From the NCBI GenBank assembly GCA_003599455.1, contig QZKF01000003.1:1-64000 (forward strand): a DNA stretch of 64,000 nt, given 5' to 3'. Positions 2,614 through 15,150 of the stretch are shown here, in pieces; position 1 is the first letter of the stretch; the number at the start of each line of letters is the position of its first letter. The DNA comes from Comamonadaceae bacterium. GTDB lineage: Bacteria > Pseudomonadota > Gammaproteobacteria > Burkholderiales > Burkholderiaceae_C. A model generated the notes under the pieces. That model saw only the letters and a program-made list of their open reading frames with translations. It was not told the DNA's origin and ran no database searches. Both the position numbers and the translations under genes were made by a program.

Positions 2614-4173
2614 ATGTCCCCGTCCATCCACCCCGTCGTGCGCCGCCAGACCATCGCCGACGCCCTGCGCCGCACCGCGCTGCGCCTGCCCGCCAAGATG
2701 GCCATCGTCTGCGGCACCACGCGCTGGACCTATGCCGAGTTCGACGCGCTGGTGAGCCGGCTGGCCGCCGGGCTGGCGCGCATGGGCGTGGCCCAGGGTG
2801 ACAAGGTGGCCGTGCTCGCGCGCAATTCGCACGGTTTTGCCGCGCTGCGCTTCGCGCTGGCGCGCCGCGGCGCGGTGATGGTGCCGATCAACTTCATGCT
2901 CAAGGCCGACGAGGTGGCCTACATCCTGCGCCATGCGGGCGCCCGCACGCTGGCCACCGACAGCGGCCTGGCCGAGCTGGCCCGCGCGGCGTCCGCGCTG
3001 GACACGCAGGTGGCGCAGTTCATCTGGCTGCCGTCCGAAGACCCGAGCGAGCCGGTGGCCGGCATGCAGCGCTTCGACGAGCTGGCCGCCTGCACCGACG
3101 CGCTGCCCGACGTGACGCTGGGCAGCTTCGACCTGGCGCAGATCGTCTACACCAGCGGCACCGAGTCCACGCCCAAGGGCGCCATGCTCACGCACGACGC
3201 GGTGCTGTGGCAGTACGTGAGCTGCGTGATCAACGCCGAGATCGCCGAGGAGGACCGCGCGCTGCACGCGCTGCCGCTCTACCACTGCGCCCAGCTCGAC
3301 GTGTTCTTCGGCCCGGCGATCTACATCGGCAGCAGCAACGTGATCACGTCCAAGCCGGTGCCCGACAACCTGCTCGCGCTGATCGAGCAGCTGCAGATCA
3401 CCAGCTTCTTCGCGCCGCCCACGGTGTGGATCGCGCTGCTGCGTTCCCCCTTGTTCGACGCCACTAAGCTGAAAAGCCTGGTCAAGGGCTACTACGGCGC
3501 GTCCATCATGCCGGTGGAAGTGCTGAAGGAACTGGCGGCGCGCCTGCCGGCGGTGCGCCTGTGGAACCTGTACGGCCAGACCGAGATCGCGCCGCTGGCC
3601 ACCATGCTCGGCCCGCAGGACCAGCTGCGCAAACCCGGCTCCTGCGGCAAGGCCGTGCTCAACGTGGAGACGCGCGTGGTCAACGACGCCATGCAGGACG
3701 TGGCGGTGGGCGAGGTCGGCGAGATCGTGCACCGCTCGCCGCACCTGATGCTGGGCTACTTCAACGACCCCGAGCGCACGAAGGCCTCGTTCGAGGGCGA
3801 CTGGTTCCACAGCGGCGACCTCGCGGTGATCGACGACGAGGGCTTCATCACGGTGGTGGACCGCAAGAAGGACATGATCAAGACCGGTGGCGAGAACGTG
3901 GCCAGCCGCGAGGTGGAGGAAATGGTCTATCGCCTGCCGGCCGTTAGCGAGGTGGCGGTGATCGGCCTGCCCGATGCGAAGTGGGTCGAGGCGGTGACGG
4001 CGGTGATCGTGGTCAAGACCGGGCAGCAGCTCACCGAGGACGAGGTGATCGCGCACTGCAACCAGCACATGGCCACCTTCAAGAGCCCGAAGCGCGTGGT
4101 GTTCACCGACAGCCTGCCCAAGAACCCCAGCGGCAAGCTGCTCAAGCGCGAGCTGCGCCAGCGCTACACCTAA
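2614..4173 (+). CDS. AMP-binding acyl-CoA synthetase
   Basis: 519 residues from the chosen ATG, which follows AGGAG by 7 bases; an in-frame ATG at 2533 lacks such a site and would add 27 non-conserved residues. ANL-superfamily motifs are all present: the P-loop YTSGTESTPKG (from about residue 179), the YGQTE motif, the hinge region DRKKDMIKTGGENV, and the C-terminal PKNPSGKLLKREL with the catalytic lysine. It should activate a carboxylic acid (fatty, aryl or short-chain) to its CoA thioester through an acyl-adenylate in the cytoplasm. The acid is not predictable. The stop overlaps the stop of the convergent amidohydrolase gene. Confidence 0.9.
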   Translation: MSPSIHPVVRRQTIADALRRTALRLPAKMAIVCGTTRWTYAEFDALVSRLAAGLARMGVAQGDKVAVLARNSHGFAALRFALARRGAVMVPINFMLKADEVAYILRHAGARTLATDSGLAELARAASALDTQVAQFIWLPSEDPSEPVAGMQRFDELAACTDALPDVTLGSFDLAQIVYTSGTESTPKGAMLTHDAVLWQYVSCVINAEIAEEDRALHALPLYHCAQLDVFFGPAIYIGSSNVITSKPVPDNLLALIEQLQITSFFAPPTVWIALLRSPLFDATKLKSLVKGYYGASIMPVEVLKELAARLPAVRLWNLYGQTEIAPLATMLGPQDQLRKPGSCGKAVLNVETRVVNDAMQDVAVGEVGEIVHRSPHLMLGYFNDPERTKASFEGDWFHSGDLAVIDDEGFITVVDRKKDMIKTGGENVASREVEEMVYRLPAVSEVAVIGLPDAKWVEAVTAVIVVKTGQQLTEDEVIAHCNQHMATFKSPKRVVFTDSLPKNPSGKLLKRELRQRYT

Positions 4174-5234
4174 GCCCAGTCGCTGCCCGTGATCAGGCGC
4201 CAGGCGTTTTCGAACGCCAGCTTGCGCTGGGTTGCAGGCGTGAACGCCGCAAGGATCTCCTGGCGTTGGTGCCCGATCTGATGCGGGTAGTTCTTCTCGA
4301 CCGCGGGGCGGTAGTCGCTGGCGGCCAGAAATCGCCGTGGGTGCTCCTCGATCAGCTGGCGCCACCCCTCGGCCACCCGGCCACCCGCATCGAACAAGGT
4401 GGAGTCGCGCGCGCCTGAAGGCTTGTAGACAAAGCTCGCGCGCGCCACGGCCAGATCAAAGTGCAGGTGTTCAAAACGCTCGATGAGGCCACGCACGTAC
4501 GCCGGCCCGTAGCGCGTGTTGCGCTCGGGGTAACGCACCTGCCCGAGGTGGCACCAGATCACGCGCGCCTGCGGGTGGGCCTGCAGCATCGCTTCCAGCG
4601 GCGGCAGCAGCTTGTCCTCGATTTCGTAGTGGATCTGGAACGCCATGCCGGTGCGTGCACTCAATTCGAACAGCGCCTTGCCGCCCGGGCCCTGGATGTC
4701 CACCGTGATGTCGCGCGCGGTCTGGCCGGCAGCGGCTTGCTCGGGCGAAGGGTAGTGGCGGAACTCGTGCTCACCCATGAAGTAGTAGGCGCCGGTCTGC
4801 AGGTCGGCCGCCGACTGGCGAACGAAGGCCACGGGGTCGTTCCACCAGCGCGCAAATTCGCCGCTGTTGGTGGTGGGGATGAAACGGTCCGGGTGCTCGC
4901 GGTGCAGCGCCAGCGAAGGCTCACCCGATGGCGCGAAGGCGGGCGCGAACGCCAGCAAGGCGATGTCGAGCTCGTCCATCCAGCGCACCATCTGGGCCAC
5001 ATCGGTGGCCTTGCCACCGGTGCGGACGATCCCCGGGTTGGCCTGCACCGACGCCTCACTGATGTAGGTGGCCTGCAGGTCGATGAGGGGCAGGCGGCCG
5101 CGGTCGAGCATGGCCTGCACCCGGCGGCGCCAGGCGGACACGGTCGACAGGCGCGCGTCTTGAGCCCTGGCGACACCGTGCGCCAGCAGCCAGGGGGTGG
5201 CCATTGCAGCCAGACATGCGGTTCGACGGTCCAT
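4170..5234 (-). CDS. Secreted amidohydrolase-like TIM-barrel protein
   Basis: 354 residues. The ATG at 5234 follows AAGGAG; longer in-frame readings are out-of-frame queG sequence. An N-terminal signal peptide (residues 1-25, ending ARAQD) predicts export. The rest resembles the amidohydrolase-2 fold: His and Asp in IHYE, WCHLGQ and HFDLAV, and a C-terminal SDYRP segment that could supply the last metal ligand. The substrate is unknown. It lies 13 bp after queG on the same strand, so the two are probably cotranscribed, with no obvious functional link. Its last bases overlap the convergent acyl-CoA synthetase gene by 4 bp. Confidence 0.75.
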   Translation of the reverse strand: MDRRTACLAAMATPWLLAHGVARAQDARLSTVSAWRRRVQAMLDRGRLPLIDLQATYISEASVQANPGIVRTGGKATDVAQMVRWMDELDIALLAFAPAFAPSGEPSLALHREHPDRFIPTTNSGEFARWWNDPVAFVRQSAADLQTGAYYFMGEHEFRHYPSPEQAAAGQTARDITVDIQGPGGKALFELSARTGMAFQIHYEIEDKLLPPLEAMLQAHPQARVIWCHLGQVRYPERNTRYGPAYVRGLIERFEHLHFDLAVARASFVYKPSGARDSTLFDAGGRVAEGWRQLIEEHPRRFLAASDYRPAVEKNYPHQIGHQRQEILAAFTPATQRKLAFENAWRLITGSDWA

Positions 5235-5247
5235 CGGGTTTGCTCCT

Positions 5248-6324
5248 TCAGGCCTGCGCCAGCGCCCAGGCCACGTGTTCGCGCACCAGTGCGCCGGGGT
5301 GCTCCGCGCGAGTGTGCAACGCCTGCGCGATCGCGGCATCGGGGCCTTCCCGCAGGGCGTTGCCCAGCGCCACCGCAATGTTGCGCAACCAGCGCTCGTG
5401 CCCGATGCGCCGGATCGGGCTGCCCTCGGTGCGCTGCAGGAATTCGGTTTCGCTCCAGGCGAACAGCTCGACCAGCGTCGCACCACTCAGGCCTTCGCGT
5501 TCATCGAAGTCGGGCAAGGGGCTGCGCTGCGCGAACTTGTTCCAGGGGCAGACCAGCTGGCAGTCGTCGCAGCCGTAGATGCGGTTGCCCATGAGCGGGC
5601 GCAGGTCTTCGGGAATGGCGCCCGCGTGTTCGATCGTGAGGTAGCTGATGCAGCGGCGCGCGTCGAGCCGATGCGGCGCGGTGATGGCCTGCGTGGGGCA
5701 GATGTCGATGCAGGCGCTGCAGGCGCCGCAGTGCTCGCTGACCGCCTCGGTGGCCGGCAGTGCGAGGTCGACGTAGATCTCGCCCAGGAAGAACATCGAA
5801 CCGGCCTCGCGGTGCAGCAACAGCGTGTGCTTGCCGCGCCAGCCCTGGCCGCTGCGCTGCGCCAGTTCGGCCTCGAGCACGGGGGCCGAGTCGGTGAACA
5901 CGCGGTGGCCCAGCGGCCCCACCGCCGCCTGGATGCGTTCGCTCAGGGTCTGCAGCCGGTTGCGCAGCACCTTGTGGTAGTCCCGCCCCCGGGCATACAG
6001 CGACACCACGGCCTCGCCCGGACGCTCCAGGCGCTGCAGCTCCAGCGCCTGCCAGCCCTCGGGCGTGGCGCGCGGCAGGTAGTCCATGCGCGCGGTGATC
6101 ACGCTCAGCGTGCCCGGCACCAGCTCGGCCGGGCGCGCGCGTTTCATGCCGTGCGCGGCCATGTAGGCCATGTCACCGTGACATCCAGCCGACAACCAGG
6201 CCTGCAGACCCGGCTCGGCGGCCGACAAATCCACACCGGCCACGCCAATTTGGGAAAATGCAAGCTCCTGGCCCCAGGCCTGTATCTGCGAGACGAGTTG
6301 AGCGGCATCCAAAGCGACATTCAT
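5248..6324 (-). CDS. queG: Epoxyqueuosine reductase
   Basis: 358 residues, the usual length. QueG carries out the last step of queuosine synthesis, the cobalamin-dependent reduction of epoxyqueuosine at the tRNA wobble base. Visible landmarks are catalytic Asp145 in FTDSAPVLE, the first [4Fe-4S] ligands C199/C202/C205, C209, and the second set C225, C252, C255, C259, followed by PWNKF. The ATG at 6324 encodes the expected N-terminus. It runs opposite to tsaE with 42 bp between starts, the same head-to-head neighbourhood seen in E. coli, where nnr lies between them. Confidence 0.95.
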   Translation of the reverse strand: MNVALDAAQLVSQIQAWGQELAFSQIGVAGVDLSAAEPGLQAWLSAGCHGDMAYMAAHGMKRARPAELVPGTLSVITARMDYLPRATPEGWQALELQRLERPGEAVVSLYARGRDYHKVLRNRLQTLSERIQAAVGPLGHRVFTDSAPVLEAELAQRSGQGWRGKHTLLLHREAGSMFFLGEIYVDLALPATEAVSEHCGACSACIDICPTQAITAPHRLDARRCISYLTIEHAGAIPEDLRPLMGNRIYGCDDCQLVCPWNKFAQRSPLPDFDEREGLSGATLVELFAWSETEFLQRTEGSPIRRIGHERWLRNIAVALGNALREGPDAAIAQALHTRAEHPGALVREHVAWALAQA

Positions 6325-6366
6325 GGCAAGCCCATTGTAGGAACCGTCCCGGCTCCTGCGGGCTCG

Positions 6367-6900
6367 GTGTCCGCGCCCGTTCGCTGGCAGGGGCGCTGGA
6401 CCACCGAGGAAGACACGCAGGCCTTCGCCCGCCAGCTCGCCACCTGCCCCGCCATCGCCCACGCCACCCTCACGCTGCAGGGCGACCTGGGCGCGGGCAA
6501 GACCACCCTGGTGCGCCACCTGCTGCGCGCGCTCGGCGTGCGCGGGCGCATCAAGAGCCCCACCTACGCGGTGGTGGAACCGCACAGCACGATCGACTGC
6601 GCGGTGATGCCGGCGGGCGAGCCGCTGCTGATCTGGCACTTCGACTTCTACCGCTTCAACGACCCGCGCGAGTGGGAAGACGCGGGTTTCCGCGAACTTT
6701 TCGCCAGCCCCGGTCTCAAGCTGGTGGAGTGGCCCGAACGCGCCGGCGATTTTCTGCCCCCGGTCGATCTGCGGATCGACATCGAACCCGACGAGATGAC
6801 ACCCCACGCCCACATCGACCTGGACCAGGACACCCACCGCAAGGTCAGCGCCACCGCGCTGACCCCCACCGGCCGCCTGCTGCTGGAGGCCCTCGCATGA
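6367..6900 (+). CDS. tsaE: tRNA threonylcarbamoyladenosine synthesis ATPase TsaE
   Basis: 177 residues from a GTG start; there is no ATG until deep in the domain and this GTG gives the normal N-terminus. Walker A is GDLGAGKTT (about residues 40-48), followed by KSPTYAVVE (switch I) and HFDFYRF (Walker B). TsaE works with TsaB and TsaD to make t6A37 in ANN-decoding tRNAs. The stop overlaps the start of amiC (ATGA), giving translational coupling, the conserved tsaE-ami order. The start is the only uncertain point, since no strong ribosome binding site precedes it. Confidence 0.9.
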   Translation: MSAPVRWQGRWTTEEDTQAFARQLATCPAIAHATLTLQGDLGAGKTTLVRHLLRALGVRGRIKSPTYAVVEPHSTIDCAVMPAGEPLLIWHFDFYRFNDPREWEDAGFRELFASPGLKLVEWPERAGDFLPPVDLRIDIEPDEMTPHAHIDLDQDTHRKVSATALTPTGRLLLEALA

Positions 6901-8351
6901 GCGACGGGGGCCGCTTCAGCCGCCGCACCCTGCTGCGCACCGGATCGCTGGTGCTGCTGCTCGGCGCGCAGCAGATCGCGCGCGGCGCCAACGTGGTGGC
7001 GGTGCGCATCTGGCCGGCCGAGGACTACACCCGCGTGACCATCGAGTCCGACGGCGCGCTGCTGGCCAGGCAGTTCTTCGTGACCGAGCCACCACGCCTG
7101 GCGGTGGACATCGAGGGCATCGACCTGCTGCCCGGCCTGCGCGAGCTGGTGGGCAAGCTCAAGTCGGACGACCCCAACATCGCCGGCATCCGCGCCGCGC
7201 AGAACGCGCCCAACGTGGTGCGCCTGGTGATCGACCTCAAGAAGCCGATCAAGCCGCAGGTGTTCAACCTCGAACCGGTGGCGGCCTACCAGCACCGGCT
7301 GGTGTTCGACCTCTACCCGGTGAACCCGCCCGACCCGCTGGCGCAGCTGATCGCCCAGCGCATGAAGGACATGGACGCGGCCAGCGAGCGCGCCGCCCGC
7401 CTGCTGGGCCTGGAAGCCGACAAGGTCACCAGGCCGGCGACGCCGGCGGACGACCCGCTGGGCGACCTCATTGCGGGCCGCGAGCGGCCAAAGATCCCCG
7501 TCAATCCCGATCAGACGCCCAGCCCGACCATGCCCAGGCCCTCGGGCAACGAAAGCACGGCCGTGGCCGGCGCGAAGCCGGACAAGGGCAGCACCGCCAG
7601 ACAGCCGCCCGGCGGCAAGGGCAAGACCGAGCGCCTCATCATCGTCGCGCTGGACCCCGGCCACGGTGGCGAAGACCCGGGTGCCATCGGCCCCAATGGC
7701 ACGCACGAGAAGAAGGTGGTGCTGCAGATCGCGCAGAAACTGCGCGACCGCATCAACGAGACGCGCGTCAACGGCAGCCCCATGCGCGCCTACATGACGC
7801 GCGACAAGGACTTCTTCGTGCCTCTGCAGGTGCGCGTGCAGAAGGCCCAGCGCGTGCAGGCCGACCTGTTCATCAGCCTGCACGCCGACGCCTTTCTCAC
7901 GCCGCGCCCGCAAGGCGCCAGCGTGTACGCGCTGAGCACGCGCGGCGCCAGCAGCGCGGCCGCGCGCTGGATGGCCAACAAGGAAAATGCCGCCGACCTC
8001 GTGGGCGGCCTGAACGTGAAGGCGGCCGACGCCAATGTGCGCCGCGCCTTGCTCGACATGAGCACCACCGCGCAGATCAACGACAGCCTCAAGCTGGGCA
8101 GCGCCATGCTGGGTCACGTGAAGAAGATCGGCAAGCTGCACAAGCCGCGCGTGGAACAGGCCAACTTCGCGGTGCTGCGCGCGCCCGACATCCCCAGCGT
8201 GCTGGTGGAAACCGCCTTCATCAGCAACCCCGACGAAGAGCGCCGCCTGAACGACCCGAAGTACCAGGACGACCTCGCCGACGCCTTGGTGCGCGGCATC
8301 GTCGCCTACTTCTCGAAGAACCCGCCGCTGGCAAAGAACAGAGGTGTGTAG
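6897..8351 (+). CDS. amiC: N-acetylmuramoyl-L-alanine amidase, Tat-exported
   Basis: 484 residues. The N-terminus has a twin-arginine signal (SRRTLLRTG, hydrophobic core, ARGAN). An AMIN domain (about 30-150) targets the division site. A Pro-rich linker (about 190-245) leads to the amidase_3 zinc domain, with DPGHGGEDPGA (Asp253, His256), SLHADA and VLVETAFISN carrying the conserved zinc ligands and catalytic Glu. It cleaves stem peptides from septal peptidoglycan during daughter-cell separation. It is coupled to tsaE. In many proteobacteria mutL follows directly; here accessory genes intervene. Confidence 0.93.
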   Translation: MSDGGRFSRRTLLRTGSLVLLLGAQQIARGANVVAVRIWPAEDYTRVTIESDGALLARQFFVTEPPRLAVDIEGIDLLPGLRELVGKLKSDDPNIAGIRAAQNAPNVVRLVIDLKKPIKPQVFNLEPVAAYQHRLVFDLYPVNPPDPLAQLIAQRMKDMDAASERAARLLGLEADKVTRPATPADDPLGDLIAGRERPKIPVNPDQTPSPTMPRPSGNESTAVAGAKPDKGSTARQPPGGKGKTERLIIVALDPGHGGEDPGAIGPNGTHEKKVVLQIAQKLRDRINETRVNGSPMRAYMTRDKDFFVPLQVRVQKAQRVQADLFISLHADAFLTPRPQGASVYALSTRGASSAAARWMANKENAADLVGGLNVKAADANVRRALLDMSTTAQINDSLKLGSAMLGHVKKIGKLHKPRVEQANFAVLRAPDIPSVLVETAFISNPDEERRLNDPKYQDDLADALVRGIVAYFSKNPPLAKNRGV

Positions 8352-8430
8352 ACTTTAAAAAGGTACTTATGTAGTACATAATTGATTTCATGATAGCCTT
8401 TAAGTGATACAAACATCACGGGGAGGTTTC
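8352..8430 (+). promoter_or_regulatory. AT-rich leader of the island
   Basis: A 79-bp AT-rich stretch between amiC and the island's first gene, in sharp contrast to its surroundings. It holds a small inverted repeat GTACT-TATGT-AGTAC (8363-8377) and the ribosome binding site GGGAGG (8420-8425) ahead of the ATG at 8431. It probably contains the island promoter; I cannot assign -35/-10 boxes with confidence. Confidence 0.45.
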
Positions 8431-10083
8431 ATGAATCGTTCTGCAGCGACTCTGCACAAAGCACTCAAACGCAGCTACTTTTGCCGGGCCTTTTTGCTCA
8501 TGGTGTGGTCGGCGTTCCTAGTCACCACACCGGCGTTCGCGCAAAAGTTCACTTGCAACGACTATTTCCTGGAGGACACGGGCCAAGAACTTCCCGAGTC
8601 CATGTGGCGCGACATCGGCTACCACTTGACGATCGATATGAGCGTTCGAGCGGGGACGAGAGATGCCGTGTGCGCAATGTCGGGCGACTCGGTCAAACGC
8701 GGAGCGCCCTACCAAGCCAAGCACTTTTGCTACGTGGGTTGCAACCCGTTGAGCGTTTGGGAAGAGGGTCCCTTTTACTACTGTGAAAAACTCTGGGACG
8801 CTACTGCGTACTATGCCCAGTACCACTACAGGAACATTGGCCTGGGCGCGAAACACCGATGCGCAGAAACCACGGCACAACTGAGCGGGCCCAAACGCAT
8901 ACCAAGCGATCTTGAAGGTTTGGAACAAGGCATAGACCTGAAGCTTCGGCTCTCAGATCATGCAAGGTATTTCTCTTCGTTGAGTTTTCTCGTTGACACG
9001 GCAAAACTCGTCATCAGCAGTGATCGCCCAGGCGCAGACAACCGGTTGTCCGACTACAAACTCGACTACCTGTCGTTTCCACCCCCAATAGGTGGCTGGT
9101 ACCGAGTAGACGACAACGGCGAGTTCAATTTCAAACTCCTGCCACAGAAATACTTCCTGTCCCGCCCCGTCAAGCGCCAGACCATCACTGTCAAGGCTAC
9201 CTGCAGCTGGTGCCAGAACATCGCCACCTGGGACATTCAAGTCGGTCCACCCGACATCGTCATCGGCTTCTTCAACGGGGTGGCGAACACGCGAGACGCA
9301 GCTCAGAGCAGCATAGACCGACTCGAAGTCGAATTCGGCCCGCAGTACAAGGACGCCCCACTCAAGTACGAATGGTTCTACAACCAGACCGCCTGCGGCG
9401 AGGGCATTTTGGGAAAGCCGTCCTGCCTCGAAGACGTGGCCGAGGTGTTCGATCAGCGCACCCGAGAACTTGGTGGCGTGTTCGCCACGCGATGGGAAAC
9501 CTTCTGGGACATCCTGGCAGGTCGCCACCAGCAAGAGACGTCCTTGACCGGGCGCCTGGTCGACCTGCTGGGCAACGGTGGCAATGCGCTCCTGCAGTGG
9601 CTGGACACGGGCGTCAACGCGATGTTGAACCAGATCGTGCGCGACTCACTCAAGCTGATCACCCTGTTCAAGGACTCTCCCACCTACGAGAACCGGGCCA
9701 ATCACATGGAACGCCTGTGGCAACATGCCGATGAAAACAGCGGCATGGTGCTCGTGGCCCACTCTCAAGGCAACTTGTTCGTCAACAGCGCCTATGACGC
9801 ACTAAAGACCGTCAAACCCAACGCACAGGCAAAGGTTGTACACGTTGCCCCGGCCTCTCCCACGCTGCGCGGCGAATACGTGCTCGCCAACATCGATCTG
9901 GTCATCAATGCGCTGCGAGTCACCGGTCTCAACAGCGTGCCGGATGTCAATATCAGCTTGCCCCTGAGCAAGATCGATCCCAGCGGTCACGGTTTCGAGC
10001 CCACCTATCTCGACACGACCCGTTCAGCCTACGCGCGCACCCGAAGCCTGATCGTCCAGTCACTGGACGCCCTAGTCGACTGA
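8431..10083 (+). CDS. Secreted alpha/beta-hydrolase-like protein of unknown function
   Basis: 550 residues. The ATG at 8431 follows GGGAGG. A signal peptide (residues 1-38, ending TTPAFAQ) predicts export. The N-terminal third is Cys-rich (Cys in TCNDY, AVCAM, HFCYVGC, YYCEK, HRCAE), likely disulfide-bonded; a beta-rich middle part with TCSWC follows. From about residue 273 a domain begins with IGFFNGVANT and contains LVAHSQGN, an alpha/beta-hydrolase nucleophile elbow with Ser445. A later DPSGHG supplies His520 and a nearby Asp as possible triad partners. No characterised family is recognised; lipase, esterase or other serine hydrolase activity is inference. Base composition is much lower in GC than flanking genes. 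The EF-hand lipoprotein gene follows 15 bp downstream. Confidence 0.8.
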   Translation: MNRSAATLHKALKRSYFCRAFLLMVWSAFLVTTPAFAQKFTCNDYFLEDTGQELPESMWRDIGYHLTIDMSVRAGTRDAVCAMSGDSVKRGAPYQAKHFCYVGCNPLSVWEEGPFYYCEKLWDATAYYAQYHYRNIGLGAKHRCAETTAQLSGPKRIPSDLEGLEQGIDLKLRLSDHARYFSSLSFLVDTAKLVISSDRPGADNRLSDYKLDYLSFPPPIGGWYRVDDNGEFNFKLLPQKYFLSRPVKRQTITVKATCSWCQNIATWDIQVGPPDIVIGFFNGVANTRDAAQSSIDRLEVEFGPQYKDAPLKYEWFYNQTACGEGILGKPSCLEDVAEVFDQRTRELGGVFATRWETFWDILAGRHQQETSLTGRLVDLLGNGGNALLQWLDTGVNAMLNQIVRDSLKLITLFKDSPTYENRANHMERLWQHADENSGMVLVAHSQGNLFVNSAYDALKTVKPNAQAKVVHVAPASPTLRGEYVLANIDLVINALRVTGLNSVPDVNISLPLSKIDPSGHGFEPTYLDTTRSAYARTRSLIVQSLDALVD

Positions 10084-10098
10084 ATCCAGGAGAGCACC

Positions 10099-10638
10099 AT
10101 GAAACGACACTCCCTCTTTGTTCTATTTCCGCTGGCACTCACCGGCTGGCTATCCGCCTGCGGTGGTGGCACATCACCCAACAATTCGGGATTGCAAGGG
10201 ACCACGCTAGCCGAGCAGATCAAGGCATTGGAAGACAGCGGTCAACTACCAAAGCTGGACCGCTCCAGAGACATCAAGGGAATAGACGCGGACAACAACG
10301 GTATCCGCGACGATATAGACGTCTGGATTGCCGCCCAGCCCTTCTCCGACGCGCAGAAGAACGCGGCGCGCCAATCTGCTCGTGTGCGCCAAGCGGAACT
10401 ATTGGCTGATCTAACCGACAAGTCTGAACTGGACAGGCTCGGCAATTTGTCAATGGCTAGTGTGAAATGCCTGCGACTATCGTTCATGCCCGACTATCAA
10501 CAGGGCTACGACCTCAGCGGCAAAATCGTTGCCCTTACCGCCAACACAAAGCAACGCGCCAAGCAATACCTTGCCTACAACCGTGCCGTCTCCGGCAGTT
10601 CCGGACGCTTACCTGAAGGCAACACGTGCGAGCCATGA
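10099..10638 (+). CDS. Lipoprotein with an EF-hand-type calcium loop
   Basis: 179 residues. The ribosome binding site AGGAG lies 8 bases upstream of the ATG. The signal peptide ends in a lipobox, WLSAC-GGG, followed by a low-complexity spacer. Residues 63-74 (D-A-D-N-N-G-I-R-D-D-I-D) match a full 12-residue EF-hand/dockerin-type loop: acids or Asn at positions 1, 3, 5, 9 and 12, and Gly at 6. The remainder is helical with two Cys (VKCLRL and the C-terminal TCEP). It lies 15 bp after the hydrolase-like gene on the same strand, so a partner or chaperone role for that exported protein is plausible but unproven. Composition is lower in GC, like its neighbour. Confidence 0.78.
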   Translation: MKRHSLFVLFPLALTGWLSACGGGTSPNNSGLQGTTLAEQIKALEDSGQLPKLDRSRDIKGIDADNNGIRDDIDVWIAAQPFSDAQKNAARQSARVRQAELLADLTDKSELDRLGNLSMASVKCLRLSFMPDYQQGYDLSGKIVALTANTKQRAKQYLAYNRAVSGSSGRLPEGNTCEP

Positions 10639-10766
10639 TCTGCCGCTTCTTGCCGTTCTGGAAATGCCCTGCGTTCGGCGCCATGATCTCTACCTCAGTG
10701 ACCTGTGCCGGCGGCACATCGCCCAGTGAAATGAGCAAGAAGCGGCCCCTCAATCTGAACAGGTGA
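10635..10766 (+). CDS. Possible 43-residue coupled small protein
   Basis: An ATG overlapping the stop of the preceding lipoprotein gene (ATGA) opens 43 codons and ends with a basic tail (SKKRPLNLNR). It contains SVTCAGGTSP, close in protein and DNA to the ACGGGTSP segment of the lipoprotein upstream (16-base block, 2 differences), so it may be a degraded partial duplicate rather than a gene. It has no ribosome binding site of its own. Confidence 0.3.
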   Translation: MICRFLPFWKCPAFGAMISTSVTCAGGTSPSEMSKKRPLNLNR

Positions 10767-10899
10767 GATACAGCAGACGCCGGGCAAACAGCCAGTCCGC
10801 GCGAGGGGGAGTGCGCCACTGGGCGGCGTCCATGGGCTGACATGCGGGTCGCCCAGCGCCGCCGAGGCCCCCGGGGCTCCGCAAACGGCGCGGGCAGTC
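10767..10899. other. Gap between the island and the nag operon
   Basis: GC-rich, non-coding on inspection. It lies beyond the nagAb stop codon (minus strand) and the island genes (plus strand), so both transcripts converge here. I found no clear terminator hairpin with a T-run, attachment site or direct repeat. Confidence 0.4.
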
Positions 10900-11223
10900 T
10901 CAGCCTTGCAGTCGCAGCAACACCCGCCCACCCTCGATGCGCACCGGGTGGCAGCGAATGGCCTCGGTCACTGGCGCGCAGGTGGCGCTGCCGTCGCGAA
11001 TGTCGAACCGGCCCTGGTGCAACGGGCACTCGATCTCATGCCCCTCCAGAAAGCCATCGCACAGGCGCGCCTGGCCGTGGGTGCAGGTGTTGTCGGTGGC
11101 GAACACGCTGCCGTCCACCTTGTAGAGCGCAATGTCGTGGCCGGCGACCTGCACCCCGATCACGTCGTCGTCGGGCACGTCGGCTTCATCGCTGGCGTCG
11201 ATCCATCCGGTGTCGTTGTTCAT
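10900..11223 (-). CDS. nagAb: Rieske-type ferredoxin of a ring-hydroxylating oxygenase
   Basis: 107 residues. A Rieske [2Fe-2S] site is formed by Cys47-x-His49 (CTHG) and Cys66-P-L-His69 (CPLHQ). It carries electrons from the reductase to the terminal oxygenase. The ATG at 11223 lies 8 bp after the small-subunit gene; longer readings are out-of-frame sequence. As last gene of the reductase - large - small - ferredoxin set it matches nagAb of the nagAaGHAb salicylate 5-hydroxylase system. The family is certain; the salicylate assignment rests on gene order and the regulator. Confidence 0.87.
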
Positions 11224-11231
11224 GGTGTGTG

Positions 11232-11786
11232 TCAGATCGGGTAGATGATGGAATTCGGGATCATTTCGCTGTCGTACACGCACAGGCGCGACGCGAACTT
11301 CAGCCCCTCGGGGGTGCGCACGATCACGTCGATGTAGCGACCGACGTTGAACACGGTGGACTCGCGCGAGAGCTTGGTGCGAAAGACCGCGTAGTTGGCC
11401 TCCACCTCGAAGCGGTCGGCTTCGGCCTTGTGCACCAGCGGGGCGCCCACCACGTGGCGCTGGTAGTACGGGTCGTGGAACAGCGTCTCCTTGATCCCGT
11501 AGGCGCGGTCCTTGAGCATGCCCTTGCTCTCGAACGACAGCGTGGCCAGCGGGAAGCCGCGCTCGTGGTTCTCGCGCGGGATCAGTTTGTAGACGCAATC
11601 GTCGATGAAGAACTCGGGCCAGAGGTCCCAGTCGCCGGAGTCGACCGCCTGGGCATAGTCGGCGTACAGCCGCGAGATCGCCAGGTGGTCCTCGAAGCGG
11701 ATGGCCGGTGCGGTGCTCACTGGAGTACCTTCGCCCTGCGGGCTGCGGTGCGAGCTTGCTTGGGAACGGCCCGGCGCGGCGCTCAT
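11232..11786 (-). CDS. nagH: Ring-hydroxylating oxygenase small (beta) subunit, probable salicylate 5-hydroxylase
   Basis: 184 residues of the beta-subunit (NTF2/SnoaL-like) fold, a structural partner of the catalytic subunit. The ATG at 11786 overlaps the large-subunit stop and has GGAGG 7 bases upstream, but the first 22 residues are atypical; a GTG at 11720 would give a 162-residue protein, close to the usual NagH length. Conserved-looking features are [24 protein letters not shown] and [11 protein letters not shown]. It should form an alpha3beta3 oxygenase that turns salicylate into gentisate. The alternative is a related aromatic acid hydroxylase. Confidence 0.85.
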
Positions 11787-13057
11787 GCCAGGTCCTCCAT
11801 CACTTCGCGCCAGTACTGGTACATGCCGCGGATCAGGGTCTCGGTGACCATGTGATCGGTGTCGCCGACCTCGCGCCCGCCCAGCTCGGCCAGGGCGCGG
11901 TGGTAAGGCTTCTGCTCGAAGCCTTGCTGCGAGAACTCGATCACCTCGCCGTCGTCCGCCGAGACGAATCCCGCCGGGCCGAACAGGTTGGCCTGCCGCA
12001 GGCGGCGCTGGGTCATCTCGGCGCTGTCGTCTTCATAACCGAAGTGCGTCCAGACGAAATCGAACGCGCCATGGCCGTCGGGCTGGATGTGGCGCGTCGA
12101 CACGCTGTTGACCTGCTGCTGCAGGATGACGCTGGGGAAGAGCGTCATCATCACCGCCGTCGGGCCGTCCCACCAGGGCTCGGGCACGATGTCCAGGAAA
12201 CGCGGGTCGTGCAACTGCATGCTCTCCTTGAAACTGGAGACCTGGGTCACCTGCTCGGCCTTGCCCGACTGGCCGCGCGTGGAGATCATGGCCGCGTGGC
12301 GATGCCGGGCGTCCATCTTCAGTTCGCTCTTGTTGTCCGCGCGCCAGAGGCCGAAGGTGACGAACCAGGTGTGCAGCAGGCCCGGGTGGTAGGGGTCCTT
12401 GATGTTCTCCTGCATCAGCTTCCAGTTGCCCGGAATGCGCTGGCGGTTGTAGCCCAGGATGGTGAGCTTGCGGCCGTTGAACAGCCGGTCGAAGTAGCCC
12501 AGGATGGTCGGGCCGAGGAATTCCTCCAGCGACTCGATGCCGTGGTCGAAGCTGGCAAACACCACGCCGCCGCGCGTGGCCACCTTGAGCTGGTTCAGGC
12601 CGTGGTCGCTGGTCTTGAAATCGGCCGGCATGCCGCCATTGACCTTGCCGTCCTGCTTCACGCCGCGGCGAAACGGCACACCCTGGAGGTCGCCCTTGAG
12701 CGTGTAGCTCCACTGGTGGTACGGGCAGACGAACTCCTTCTTGTTGCCGTGCCGCTCGCGGCAGAACTGCATGCCGCGGTGGGCGCACACGTTCTCCACC
12801 ACGCTGATGCCACCCTCGGCATCGCGCACCATGATGACCGAGCGCTCCCCCACCACCGTGCGCTTGTAGTCGCCCGCGTTCGGTACCTCGGCCTCCAGGC
12901 CGACGTAGTTCCAGTGCTTCGTGTAGAAGAAGCGCTCGAGCTCTTTCCTGTGTTGTGCGGCGTCGGTGTAGGCCATGAAGGGAATGCGGCTCGTGCCTTC
13001 GGATTCCCAGTGGATGCGCTGCGGGAACGTGCTTTCGGCGGCGGGTGATGTGCTCAT
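11783..13057 (-). CDS. nagG: Ring-hydroxylating oxygenase large (alpha) subunit, probable salicylate 5-hydroxylase
   Basis: 424 residues, within a residue or two of known NagG proteins. The Rieske centre is Cys91-x-His93 and Cys111-x2-His114. The mononuclear iron site is DPYHPGLLH with bridging Asp221, His224 and His229. It would hydroxylate salicylate at C5 to gentisate using O2 and electrons from NagAa/NagAb. The ATG at 13057 gives the expected N-terminus; in-frame extension upstream overlaps the reductase gene and is not real. No naphthalene dioxygenase genes and no gentisate dioxygenase lie in the window, so the complete ring-cleavage route must be elsewhere. Confidence 0.88.
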
Positions 13058-13082
13058 GGGTGTGGTCTCCTTCTGAAAGCTT

Positions 13083-14069
13083 CTAGGTACCGCTGGCGTA
13101 GAACGCGTCGGCGTAAATCTGCTCGGGCAACACGCCCATGCGCTGAACAAGCCGCGACGCGGCCTCCACCATGGGTGGCGCGCCGCAGAGGTAGGCGCGA
13201 AAGCCTTGCAGGTCGGGCCAGTCCTGCTCGATCGCGTCGGTGACCAGCCCGGTGCGGCAGCCCGGCGCGCGGCCCGAGGCAATCACCGTGTGCACCTGCA
13301 GCCTGGGATACCGCTGCTGCAGTTCGGCCAGCCAGTCCAGCCCGTACACGTCGCGTTCCGAACGCACACCGAAGTAGAGGTGGATGGGGTTGTGCATGCC
13401 CGATGCGACCACGCCGCGCACGATGGACAGGATGGGCGCCAGGCCGGTGCCGCCGGCCACGCAGAGCATGGGCCCGGTGTGTTTGCGGCGCAGGTAGGCC
13501 GAGCCCAGCGGGCCGGTCACGCGCACCGCATCGCCCACCTTGAGTTCGCGCTCGATGTAGCCCGTCACGCGGCCGTCGGGCACGCGCCGCACATGGAACT
13601 CGAGCTCGCCATCGGTGCACAGGCCGGCCATGGAATAGGGGCGGATGTGGTCGGGCGTGAACTGCAGCTGCACATACTGCCCCGGCGAAAACTCCAGCGG
13701 CTTGGCGGGCTTGCGCCGCAGGCGCTGGATGTCGTGCGTGGGCGACTCGATCGCGACCACGGTGGCCTTGATGATGCGCGCGGGGTGCACCACCACCTCG
13801 TCGGGTTCGGGAATCTCGACCGTGCAGGGTTCGGTGAGGAAGGTCTGGCAGGCGAGCACGCTGGTCGCGTCTTCCAGCGCCTGCGGTGGCCGCTGTTCGC
13901 GCCCCGATTCCAGCACATGCCCCGAAGTCACCTTGCAGCGGCAGGTGCCGCAGCGGCCCGCCAGGCAGCTGTACGACACCGGGATGTCGTGGGCGCGCAG
14001 CGCTTCCAGCAGGTTCGCGCCCGCGTCGACACGCAGCGTGCGCTGCAGCGGGCGTACTTGAATGTCCAT
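13083..14069 (-). CDS. nagAa: Ferredoxin-NAD(P)H reductase of the oxygenase
   Basis: 328 residues, the length of NahAa/NagAa. A plant-type [2Fe-2S] domain comes first (Cys35, Cys40, Cys43, Cys74), then an FAD domain with RPYSMAG (about residues 140-146) and an NAD(P)H domain with [10 protein letters not shown] and [10 protein letters not shown]. It passes electrons from NAD(P)H to the Rieske ferredoxin NagAb. First gene of the leftward operon, 133 bp from the divergent nagR start, where the control region lies. Nag-type systems share this one reductase between oxygenases; here it serves a single oxygenase in the window. Confidence 0.9.
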
Positions 14070-14202: not shown

Positions 14203-15129
14203 ATGAAGCTCGAAGAGATCGACCTGAACCTGCTCGTCGTGTTCAACCAGTTGCTGACCGAACGCAAGGTCTCCCGGGTGGCCGAGAACCTGGGCCTGGG
14301 GCAACCCGCGGTGAGCAACGCGCTGGCGCGGCTGCGCAAGCTGTTCGACGACGAGCTGTTTCTGCGCACCGCCCACGGCATGCAGCCCACCCCCTATGCC
14401 GAGCAGCTGGCCGAATCGATCGGTTATGCGCTGGGCATGATCCACAGCGCCGTGAACGCGCGCAGCTCTTTCGATCCGGCCACCAGCCAGCGCAGCTTCA
14501 CCGTGGGCATGACCGACATCGGCGAGATCTATTTCCTGCCGCTGCTGATGCAGCGCATCCAGCAACTGGCGCCCGCGGTGACCATCAGCACGGTGCGCAA
14601 CACCTCGCTGCACCTGCGCGACGCGATGGAAGCCGGCCAGGTCGATCTGGCCATTGGCCTGCTGCCGCAGCTCAAGGCCGGCTTCTTTCAGCGGCGCCTG
14701 TTCGAGCAGCGCTACGTGTGCCTGTTCCGGCAGGGGCACCCGCTCGATCTGAAACGCATGAAGGCGGCCGATTTTTTTGCCGCCGAACATGTGGCCGTGG
14801 TCTCGGCCGGCACCGGGCATGGGCAGGTGGACGAGATTCTCGACAACCACTCACCGCAGCGCCGCGTGAAGCTGAAAGTGCCGCACTTCGTGGCCATTGG
14901 TCACATCCTGCAGTCCACCGACCTGATCGCCACCGTGCCCGAGCGCCTGGCCGAGCGCATGGTGCAGCCCTTCGGCCTGAAGCAGCTGCCGCACCCGGTG
15001 GACCTGCCGAGGATCGCCATCAACGTGTTCTGGCACGCGAAGTACCACAAGGACCCGGCCAGCCAGTGGCTGCGCAAGCTGGTGATCGATCTGCACGCCG
15101 ACGACCAGGGCGCACCGGCGCGCTCATGA
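14203..15129 (+). CDS. nagR: LysR-type regulator of the NahR/NagR group
   Basis: 308 residues. The N-terminal helix-turn-helix (KVSRVAENLGLGQPAVSNALARLRK) and blocks such as MTDIGEIYFLPLLM, GFFQRRL, VSAGTGHGQVD and INVFWHAKYHKD are hallmarks of NahR/NagR, which activate aromatic catabolism in response to salicylate. It is divergent from nagAaGHAb, the same arrangement as in the nag operon of Ralstonia sp. U2. It likely binds the 14.13-14.18 kb region, activates nagAa and represses itself. Effector identity is inferred from family resemblance. Confidence 0.88.
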   Translation: MKLEEIDLNLLVVFNQLLTERKVSRVAENLGLGQPAVSNALARLRKLFDDELFLRTAHGMQPTPYAEQLAESIGYALGMIHSAVNARSSFDPATSQRSFTVGMTDIGEIYFLPLLMQRIQQLAPAVTISTVRNTSLHLRDAMEAGQVDLAIGLLPQLKAGFFQRRLFEQRYVCLFRQGHPLDLKRMKAADFFAAEHVAVVSAGTGHGQVDEILDNHSPQRRVKLKVPHFVAIGHILQSTDLIATVPERLAERMVQPFGLKQLPHPVDLPRIAINVFWHAKYHKDPASQWLRKLVIDLHADDQGAPARS

Positions 15130-15150
15130 TGAGCGCCGCCGTGCGCGGGC

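Follow-up and report, generated by a model that had tools for sequence, protein, structure and literature searches.

A mobile gene pair for a predicted cutinase-like hydrolase and a calcium-loop lipoprotein, found on a low-GC island of a Comamonadaceae genome

The first 64,000 bases of contig QZKF01000003.1 from a Comamonadaceae bacterium (assembly GCA_003599455.1, forward strand; hereafter the window) carry two intact genes, 15 bases apart, which we call H, for a putative exported hydrolase, and P, for a lipoprotein. An initial annotation had singled them out as a possible undescribed system, and the suspicion proved well founded: the pair is real, unnamed and uncurated, and constitutes a widespread, mobile, near-obligate two-gene system. 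One boundary had to be moved, in that the annotation opened the gene at 8352, whereas H begins at the ATG at 8431, behind the sequence GGGGAGG. The elements of the pair, all on the plus strand, are the following (locus and genome numbers used below are our own).

8420..8426, plus strand: ribosome-binding site GGGGAGG of gene H, from the sequence
8431..10083, plus strand: gene H, predicted exported cutinase-like alpha/beta hydrolase of 550 amino acids, candidate triad Ser445, Asp489 and His520
8431..8541, plus strand: Sec-type signal peptide of H, residues 1-37, cleavage after AFA37, read by eye
9223..10080, plus strand: conserved hydrolase domain of H, residues 265-550, from relatives and the structural model
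10099..10638, plus strand: gene P, lipoprotein partner of 179 amino acids, lipobox LSAC21 (by eye), 15 bases 3' of H
10285..10320, plus strand: calcium-type loop DADNNGIRDDID, residues 63-74 of P, conserved in homologues

The association of the two genes was measured in several genome samples. A search for H in 399 genomes of the family gave eight carriers, with one locus read per carrier, and a homologous lipoprotein stands beside H in all eight (L017 and L018, among them, being near-identical). With an alignment of seven H domains as query, 80 loci were then retrieved from a named genome collection, and adjacency in them was scored with small models built from seven H and ten P sequences. 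P adjoins H in 78 of the 80, preceding it in 61 and following it in 17, the latter being the arrangement in the clade of the window; the frames are no more than 60 bases apart at 75 of these loci and never more than 232. At the genus level, 67 genomes include 18 with H and 19 with P, all 18 carriers of H also having P, and the only genome with P and no H (G845) has a P fragment at a contig edge. The initial annotation had staked its case on whether the two families occur together elsewhere, and these counts bear it out. Starting instead from P, we found H beside P in 14 of 17 genomes of a phylum sample. In a class sample, six of the 14 matching genomes were left out, their match being confined to the lipobox end of the P model; the remaining eight match the body of P, and seven of these have H or a piece of H beside it. 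Genomes of the family, phylum and genus samples are partly the same as loci of the named collection, so that the counts are not additive.

The titles of the loci include Hydrogenophaga, Variovorax, Polaromonas, Cupriavidus, Marinobacter, Photobacterium, Acinetobacter and Sphingomonas, as well as Campylobacteraceae, Denitrovibrio, Nitrospirota, Aquifex and candidate-phylum bacteria; this breadth is to be read with the caveat that the match to P is weak in the most distant lineages and that several contigs of metagenome-assembled genomes are short (about 3 kb for L047 and L049) and possibly misbinned. The P of a Polyangiaceae locus (L029) nests among Variovorax P in a tree of modest support. Identities between loci are correlated for H and P (r 0.80 over 54 loci, with one P per locus), a correlation that could be explained by shared descent alone. 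Among the top 25 groups of neighbouring proteins, no third family recurs beside the pair, apart from shared synteny, antisense frames of the pair itself and an ABC-ATPase-like set at seven loci; likewise, when 95 neighbour proteins (93 of them from 18 diverse loci, 2 from plasmid loci) were scanned against Pfam, no family occurred in more than four.

The strongest evidence for joint action of H and P is provided by three genomes in which both are encoded in a single reading frame, with P first (L214, L216 and L264). The fusion of L264, on plasmid pDAETH-1 of Deinococcus aetherius, is 573 amino acids long and has a lipobox; P occupies its residues 36-151, the match to H runs from 168, and by eye both the calcium loop and the hydrolase motifs are intact. 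That of L214 (genome G788) has 942 amino acids, with a lipobox and DUF5648 and Lcl_C domains, and that of L216 (G875) is an open frame of 795 amino acids. A frame in the opposite order was seen at L035 (the same place as L209), where H, minus its end, reads on without a frame shift into the final third of P; it is probably the product of a deletion. Because the two are nearly always together, and sometimes fused, P is very probably a dedicated partner of H. As to their surroundings, the L264 fusion gene (region 3583-8248) sits between a gene for a repeat-rich adhesin-like lipoprotein and one for a putative membrane protein, and L214 (1448-12742) holds a cluster of lipoproteins with similar repeats, of which the fusion is the member that matches DUF5648.

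Gene H is conserved mainly in its C-terminal half: upstream of residue 265 it is variable among relatives and poorly modelled. The AHSQG motif at Ser445, His520 and the richness in cysteine (10 in the mature protein) had all been read correctly at the outset. Judged by the catalytic layout of cutinases, Ser445, Asp489 and His520 are the candidate triad; across 62 H sequences the first two are kept in all and the third in 61, the exception being L079, which has Asp at that position. Asp516, kept in 58 of the 62, could be an alternative catalytic acid to Asp489, going by this conservation. The predicted structure (mean predicted local distance difference test score, pLDDT, of 70.5) is reliable for the conserved domain only: in the mature chain, most of residues 391-513 score above 90, and the first 106 residues fall almost entirely below 50. 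The alpha/beta-hydrolase fold anticipated by the initial annotation is present in this model, whose core matches best the cutinase 1oxm_A (Z 13.1, root-mean-square deviation 3.6 over 168 residues), with 274 chains at Z >= 8. A helical insertion in the model, at residues about 325-432, is a possible lid. An H of 586 amino acids is near-identical in two genomes (L017 7501-9261, L018 7828-9588 and L079 5908-7668), and one of these 586-residue genes lies on a plasmid of Methylibium petroleiphilum.

The mature P protein has 159 residues, and its predicted structure is helical and confident (pLDDT 93.4). The ligand positions 1, 3, 5, 9 and 12 of its loop are kept in 67 (D63), 66 (N/D65), 68 (N/D67), 69 (D/E71) and 61 (D/E74) of 70 P homologues, and G68 in 68; Cys124 and Arg153 are invariant in all 70, and Cys177 is present in 69. 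P had been introduced as an EF-hand lipoprotein, a description of which the conserved 12-residue loop at 63-74 stands and the EF-hand does not. In mature numbering, the model has coil at 28-50, the loop at 43-54 and a helix at 51-58, with no helix entering the loop, and because of this we describe it as a calcium-type loop rather than a full EF-hand; none of the 70 P proteins matches an EF-hand family in Pfam (E <= 0.01). Foldseek found no relative of P among solved structures (best E 1.7), and a second structure comparison peaked at Z 6.4 with designed bundles, matches that may reflect a merely common helical arrangement. In the genomes of one other family (L104, L109, L111, L114 and L122), the P domain ends longer open frames with low-complexity repeats or repeats that we take to be HYR-like. 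Arrays of two or three P occur at L190 (5883-7326), L191 and L192, in genomes with no recognisable H, all three of them incomplete.

Neither gene belongs to a family with a curated model in Pfam or NCBIfam, as far as profile searches tell, and the earlier statement that the pair has no close match among characterised ones holds for Pfam, NCBIfam and PDB sequences alike. H and P of the window have no match over the cut-off in the first two databases, the nearest for H being a sub-threshold one to Ser_hydrolase (PF06821, E 0.11), and sequence profiles of the PDB contain no relative of either. Taken as a set, the 62 H proteins gave isolated weak hydrolase matches in Pfam (E 0.005-0.009) plus DUF2135 and DUF746, no cutinase family, and one chance-level match in NCBIfam. 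The 70 P proteins gave eight Pfam families with one member each, PKD domains included, and 13 NCBIfam families, of which the commonest was invert_tail with five members (best E 0.00023; window P, E 0.021, 15.2 bits vs 37 required), most of the others being single members matching, for example, long metallopeptidase models. We read these matches of P as leader-sequence, accessory-domain or chance matches and do not take them as the identity of the family, none of them covering it. Models of anti-phage defence in PADLOC matched none of four proteins (both window proteins and two H relatives), phage records gave no match, a first scan of genome contigs with P0001 alone confirmed no relative, and no published account of the pair was found in the open-licence literature with the terms used.

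We next consider the DNA in which the pair is embedded, which adds two features to those above.

8333..10898, no strand: inserted low-GC island, between amiC (last codons included) and a Rieske ferredoxin gene, absent at this site in relatives
8354..8382, plus strand: promoter-like site, weak evidence from a consensus scan (9/12 matches)

The low-GC island of the initial annotation was confirmed, down to its local counts of G+C (27/60 at 8941-9000 and 43/60 at 7141-7200 in amiC). Over 8431-10638 the GC content is 0.573, below the lowest value (0.632) of 571 overlapping 2208-base windows from the rest of the 64 kb (mean 0.692, standard deviation 0.024), and third-position GC is 0.726 in H and 0.639 in P, vs 0.94 in amiC. 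The end of amiC was located in 65 of the 67 genus genomes, and 29 loci besides that of the window were retrieved as sequence; in none of these 29 is there an alignment longer than 60 bases within 8333-10898. Three of them (L268, L270 and L279) run from amiC, within some tens of bases, into a match to window position 10899 onward, the Rieske ferredoxin gene, and in a fourth (L269) the match after amiC begins at 10915, in the same gene. The remaining relatives have, after amiC, dioxygenase genes without the Rieske gene, or the region of window position 15150 onward, or unaligned sequence, and the last codons of the window's amiC differ from those of the relatives. Since relatives lack the segment at the same site, we interpret the island as an insertion. 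The promoter scan returned two overlapping sites, vs a mean of 0.8 (standard deviation 0.9) in shuffles, and an Rfam search of 8200-11000 at gathering thresholds returned nothing. On the far side of the island, at 10899-14069 on the minus strand, adjoin genes for a Rieske ferredoxin, dioxygenase small and large subunit-like proteins and a ferredoxin reductase-like protein, followed beyond the dioxygenase genes by a LysR-type regulator-like gene at 14203 (all named by eye from translations).

The family is found on mobile elements elsewhere as well: a tblastn search with H hit 17 plasmid records, of which seven are typed conjugative, and in the five plasmid loci retrieved P precedes H in four and is fused to it in the fifth. 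A second locus in the window's own genome (L012, contig 27, 6642-10010) consists of P, a truncated H of 184 amino acids that stops before the nucleophile elbow, another P and a full H of 559 amino acids. In Comamonas sp. BIGb0124 (L015, the same place as L039, 6936-8300), H is in two pieces with one internal stop, and P is intact.

The reading that we favour, albeit with considerable reserve, is that P acts as a dedicated partner of H, lipid-anchored in most cases, which by binding H folds it, activates it or holds it at the membrane. It draws on the observed adjacency in either gene order, the fusions and the insertion of the island, on the fold class suggested by the model and on the conservation of the candidate triad residues, and from this combination we infer physical contact between H and P, a folding or anchoring role for P, calcium dependence and an ester or lipid substrate. 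As part of this joint reading, and with the same guarded preference, H would be an exported serine esterase with a cutinase-like core, as its model suggests. H would be exported and meet P outside the cytoplasm; P would bind it and, probably with calcium, fold, activate or anchor it at the membrane; H would then cleave its substrate, an ester or a lipid, either at the cell surface or once secreted; and the pair would move as a cassette on plasmids and islands.

Several observations weigh against this proposal. More than one P open frame is present in 11 of the 80 loci (two of the four counted at L051 being halves of one broken P), and the five P that accompany one H at L020 are not expected of a foldase or an anchor. 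Four genus loci (L012, L196, L200 and L201) have a decayed H beside an intact P. Three genomes of the phylum sample (G568, G642 and G628, 70-90% complete) have arrays of P and no recognisable H anywhere, a single-contig genome of the class sample (G862) has a weak P and no H, and L089 and L092 have a weak H-like match with no P by the small model. P has no relative of solved fold that would hint at a chaperone. In several distant relatives, P has by eye a plain signal sequence and no lipobox, so lipid anchoring of P is not universal.

Much of this (the tandem P, the decayed H and the plasmid carriage) would suit a toxin with its immunity proteins, and the most serious rival, which the initial annotation had not considered and which we nevertheless judge rather improbable, casts H as a secreted antibacterial toxin of the lipase type and P as an immunity lipoprotein guarding the envelope of the producer, with extra P directed against variant H. 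Tandem immunity genes are a sign of toxin systems, and the multiple P frames, the mosaic copies of L020, the intact P next to decayed H in the genus, the P arrays without H in three incomplete genomes and the patchy spread over 18 of 67 genus genomes and plasmids all fit. The L020 copies are 59-74% identical and share blocks mosaically, which would suggest sequence exchange, and with modest support they intermix in a tree with P of other genomes. At the same time, the ratio of nonsynonymous to synonymous substitution rates (dN/dS) is 0.14-0.31 in the nine of their ten pairs that could be computed, and 0.11-0.31 in 13 of 15 pairs once window P is included (two not computable). These values indicate purifying selection on tandem P, which speaks against immunity, and positive selection, which we had also considered, was rejected. 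Decay affects 7 of 23 copies of H in the genus and 2-4 of 32 copies of P, a tally that leaves out contig-edge copies, the ambiguous contig-end H of L211 and L212 and the L214 fusion; it could be explained by the roughly threefold length of H, so we set it aside as proof of immunity. Nor is a delivery system evident: TssB, a marker of type VI secretion systems (T6SS), scores above the cut-off in 6 of the 38 carriers tested and at E <= 0.001 in 8, the window's own genome not being among them, and matches in one of 14 control genomes. We therefore rejected a T6SS effector identity for H, most carriers tested being without TssB. GspD of the type II secretion system passes the cut-off in 36 of the carriers, again out of 38, but also in 18 of the 20 genus genomes that lack H (G845, with its P fragment, is one of the 20); its presence is thus compatible with export of H by this route and does not discriminate. 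The fusions, at least one of them with intact motifs on both sides, are the strongest argument against a plain toxin-immunity pair, as they would tie a toxin to its own inhibitor. Precedents for immunity proteins that are lipoproteins in T6SS (PMC9860674) and for lipase effector pairs in type IV secretion systems (T4SS; PMC6759196) are nonetheless on record.

In all three fusions P forms the N-terminal part, and in 61 of the 80 loci its gene precedes that of H. This position fits a further alternative, that P is a split-off pro-domain, working in cis where the two are fused and in trans where they are separate, which would assist the folding of H and hold it inactive up to its release. This would reconcile the fusions with the P arrays, and a Tli protein reported both to activate and to neutralise its Tle (PMC10294624) offers a precedent; against it, P lies downstream of H in the clade of the window, and the one H-then-P frame, that of L035, looks like a deletion product. 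We consider it unlikely. That H and P are two unrelated cargo genes travelling together on an island is hardly credible: the island is an insertion and the family does occur on plasmids, but this account is already contradicted by the fusions and by the adjacency of the two at 78 of the 80 loci, in one order or the other. Accidental neighbourhood was likewise rejected on the adjacency, the close spacing and the fusions.

The proposal of a dedicated partner admits a bolder form, which is conceivable and which we put forward tentatively: H and P would represent an undescribed class of mobile envelope esterases in distant lineages, in which H depends on a lipid-anchored calcium-loop domain, supplied within the same chain (in cis) in some lineages and as a separate protein (in trans) in most, the domain being both folding helper and safety catch and tandem copies tuning specificity. 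Enzymes served by a dedicated helper are a familiar kind of system, but the two families here are uncurated and yet coupled across distant bacteria and on plasmids. The fusions bear on whether the helper works both ways, in cis as well as in trans, and for the P arrays the alternatives are sharply drawn, P being either a chaperone or an immunity protein. Should H prove to require its helper for activity, a group of proteins now called hypothetical would become expressible as esterases.

Among known systems, the initial annotation had looked to lipase/foldase pairs, while stating that P has no sequence resemblance to lipase foldases; the latter holds, with none of the 70 P proteins matching the lipase-chaperone family (Pfam, E <= 0.01). 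The lipase helper Lif is helical and encoded beside its lipase. In Burkholderia glumae, LipA is an exported alpha/beta hydrolase that needs the membrane-based periplasmic helper Lif (PMC3352829). H and P resemble this arrangement, with an exported protein modelled as an alpha/beta hydrolase and an adjoining, apparently membrane-bound helper (lipobox by eye), a resemblance that does not amount to membership; unlike Lif, P has a lipobox, 159 mature residues, tandem copies and fusions. By analogy, PlcH with PlcR1/PlcR2 of Pseudomonas aeruginosa seems the closer functional parallel: a secreted lipid-cleaving enzyme and a small, putatively calcium-binding helper from an adjacent gene, released as a secreted heterodimer (PMC3601568). 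PlcH, however, is a Tat-exported phospholipase C of another superfamily (PMC3601568), whereas H is an alpha/beta hydrolase in its model, carries a Sec-type signal and matches no phosphoesterase family; PlcR, compared with P by description only, is not termed a lipoprotein in the available text of that source.

Lipolytic enzymes with accessory or neutralising partners offer further likenesses. The Serratia phospholipase PlaA1 has an accessory protein that binds it, PlaS (PMC11199421), likened here by description only. Among the T6SS pairs, Tle3/Tli3 comes nearest in joining a lipase-type enzyme to a lipoprotein, as phospholipase immunity proteins can be outer-membrane lipoproteins (PMC9860674); it differs in that H has a Sec-type signal and most tested carriers are without TssB. 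T4SS effector pairs, too, include lipases (PMC6759196). Since one Tli protein is on record as both activating and neutralising its Tle toxin (PMC10294624), the helper and immunity readings need not be exclusive. With the fungal cutinases (1oxm, 1cuz) H shares the modelled core fold at Z 13.1, and it departs from them in its roughly 10% identity, helical insertion, extra parts, partner gene and, for all 62 H, lack of a cutinase family match. On these analogies, H and P appear to work most like LipA/Lif and PlcH/PlcR2, and we file them under neither, because H is unlike PlcH and P is a small lipoprotein that does not match the lipase chaperones.

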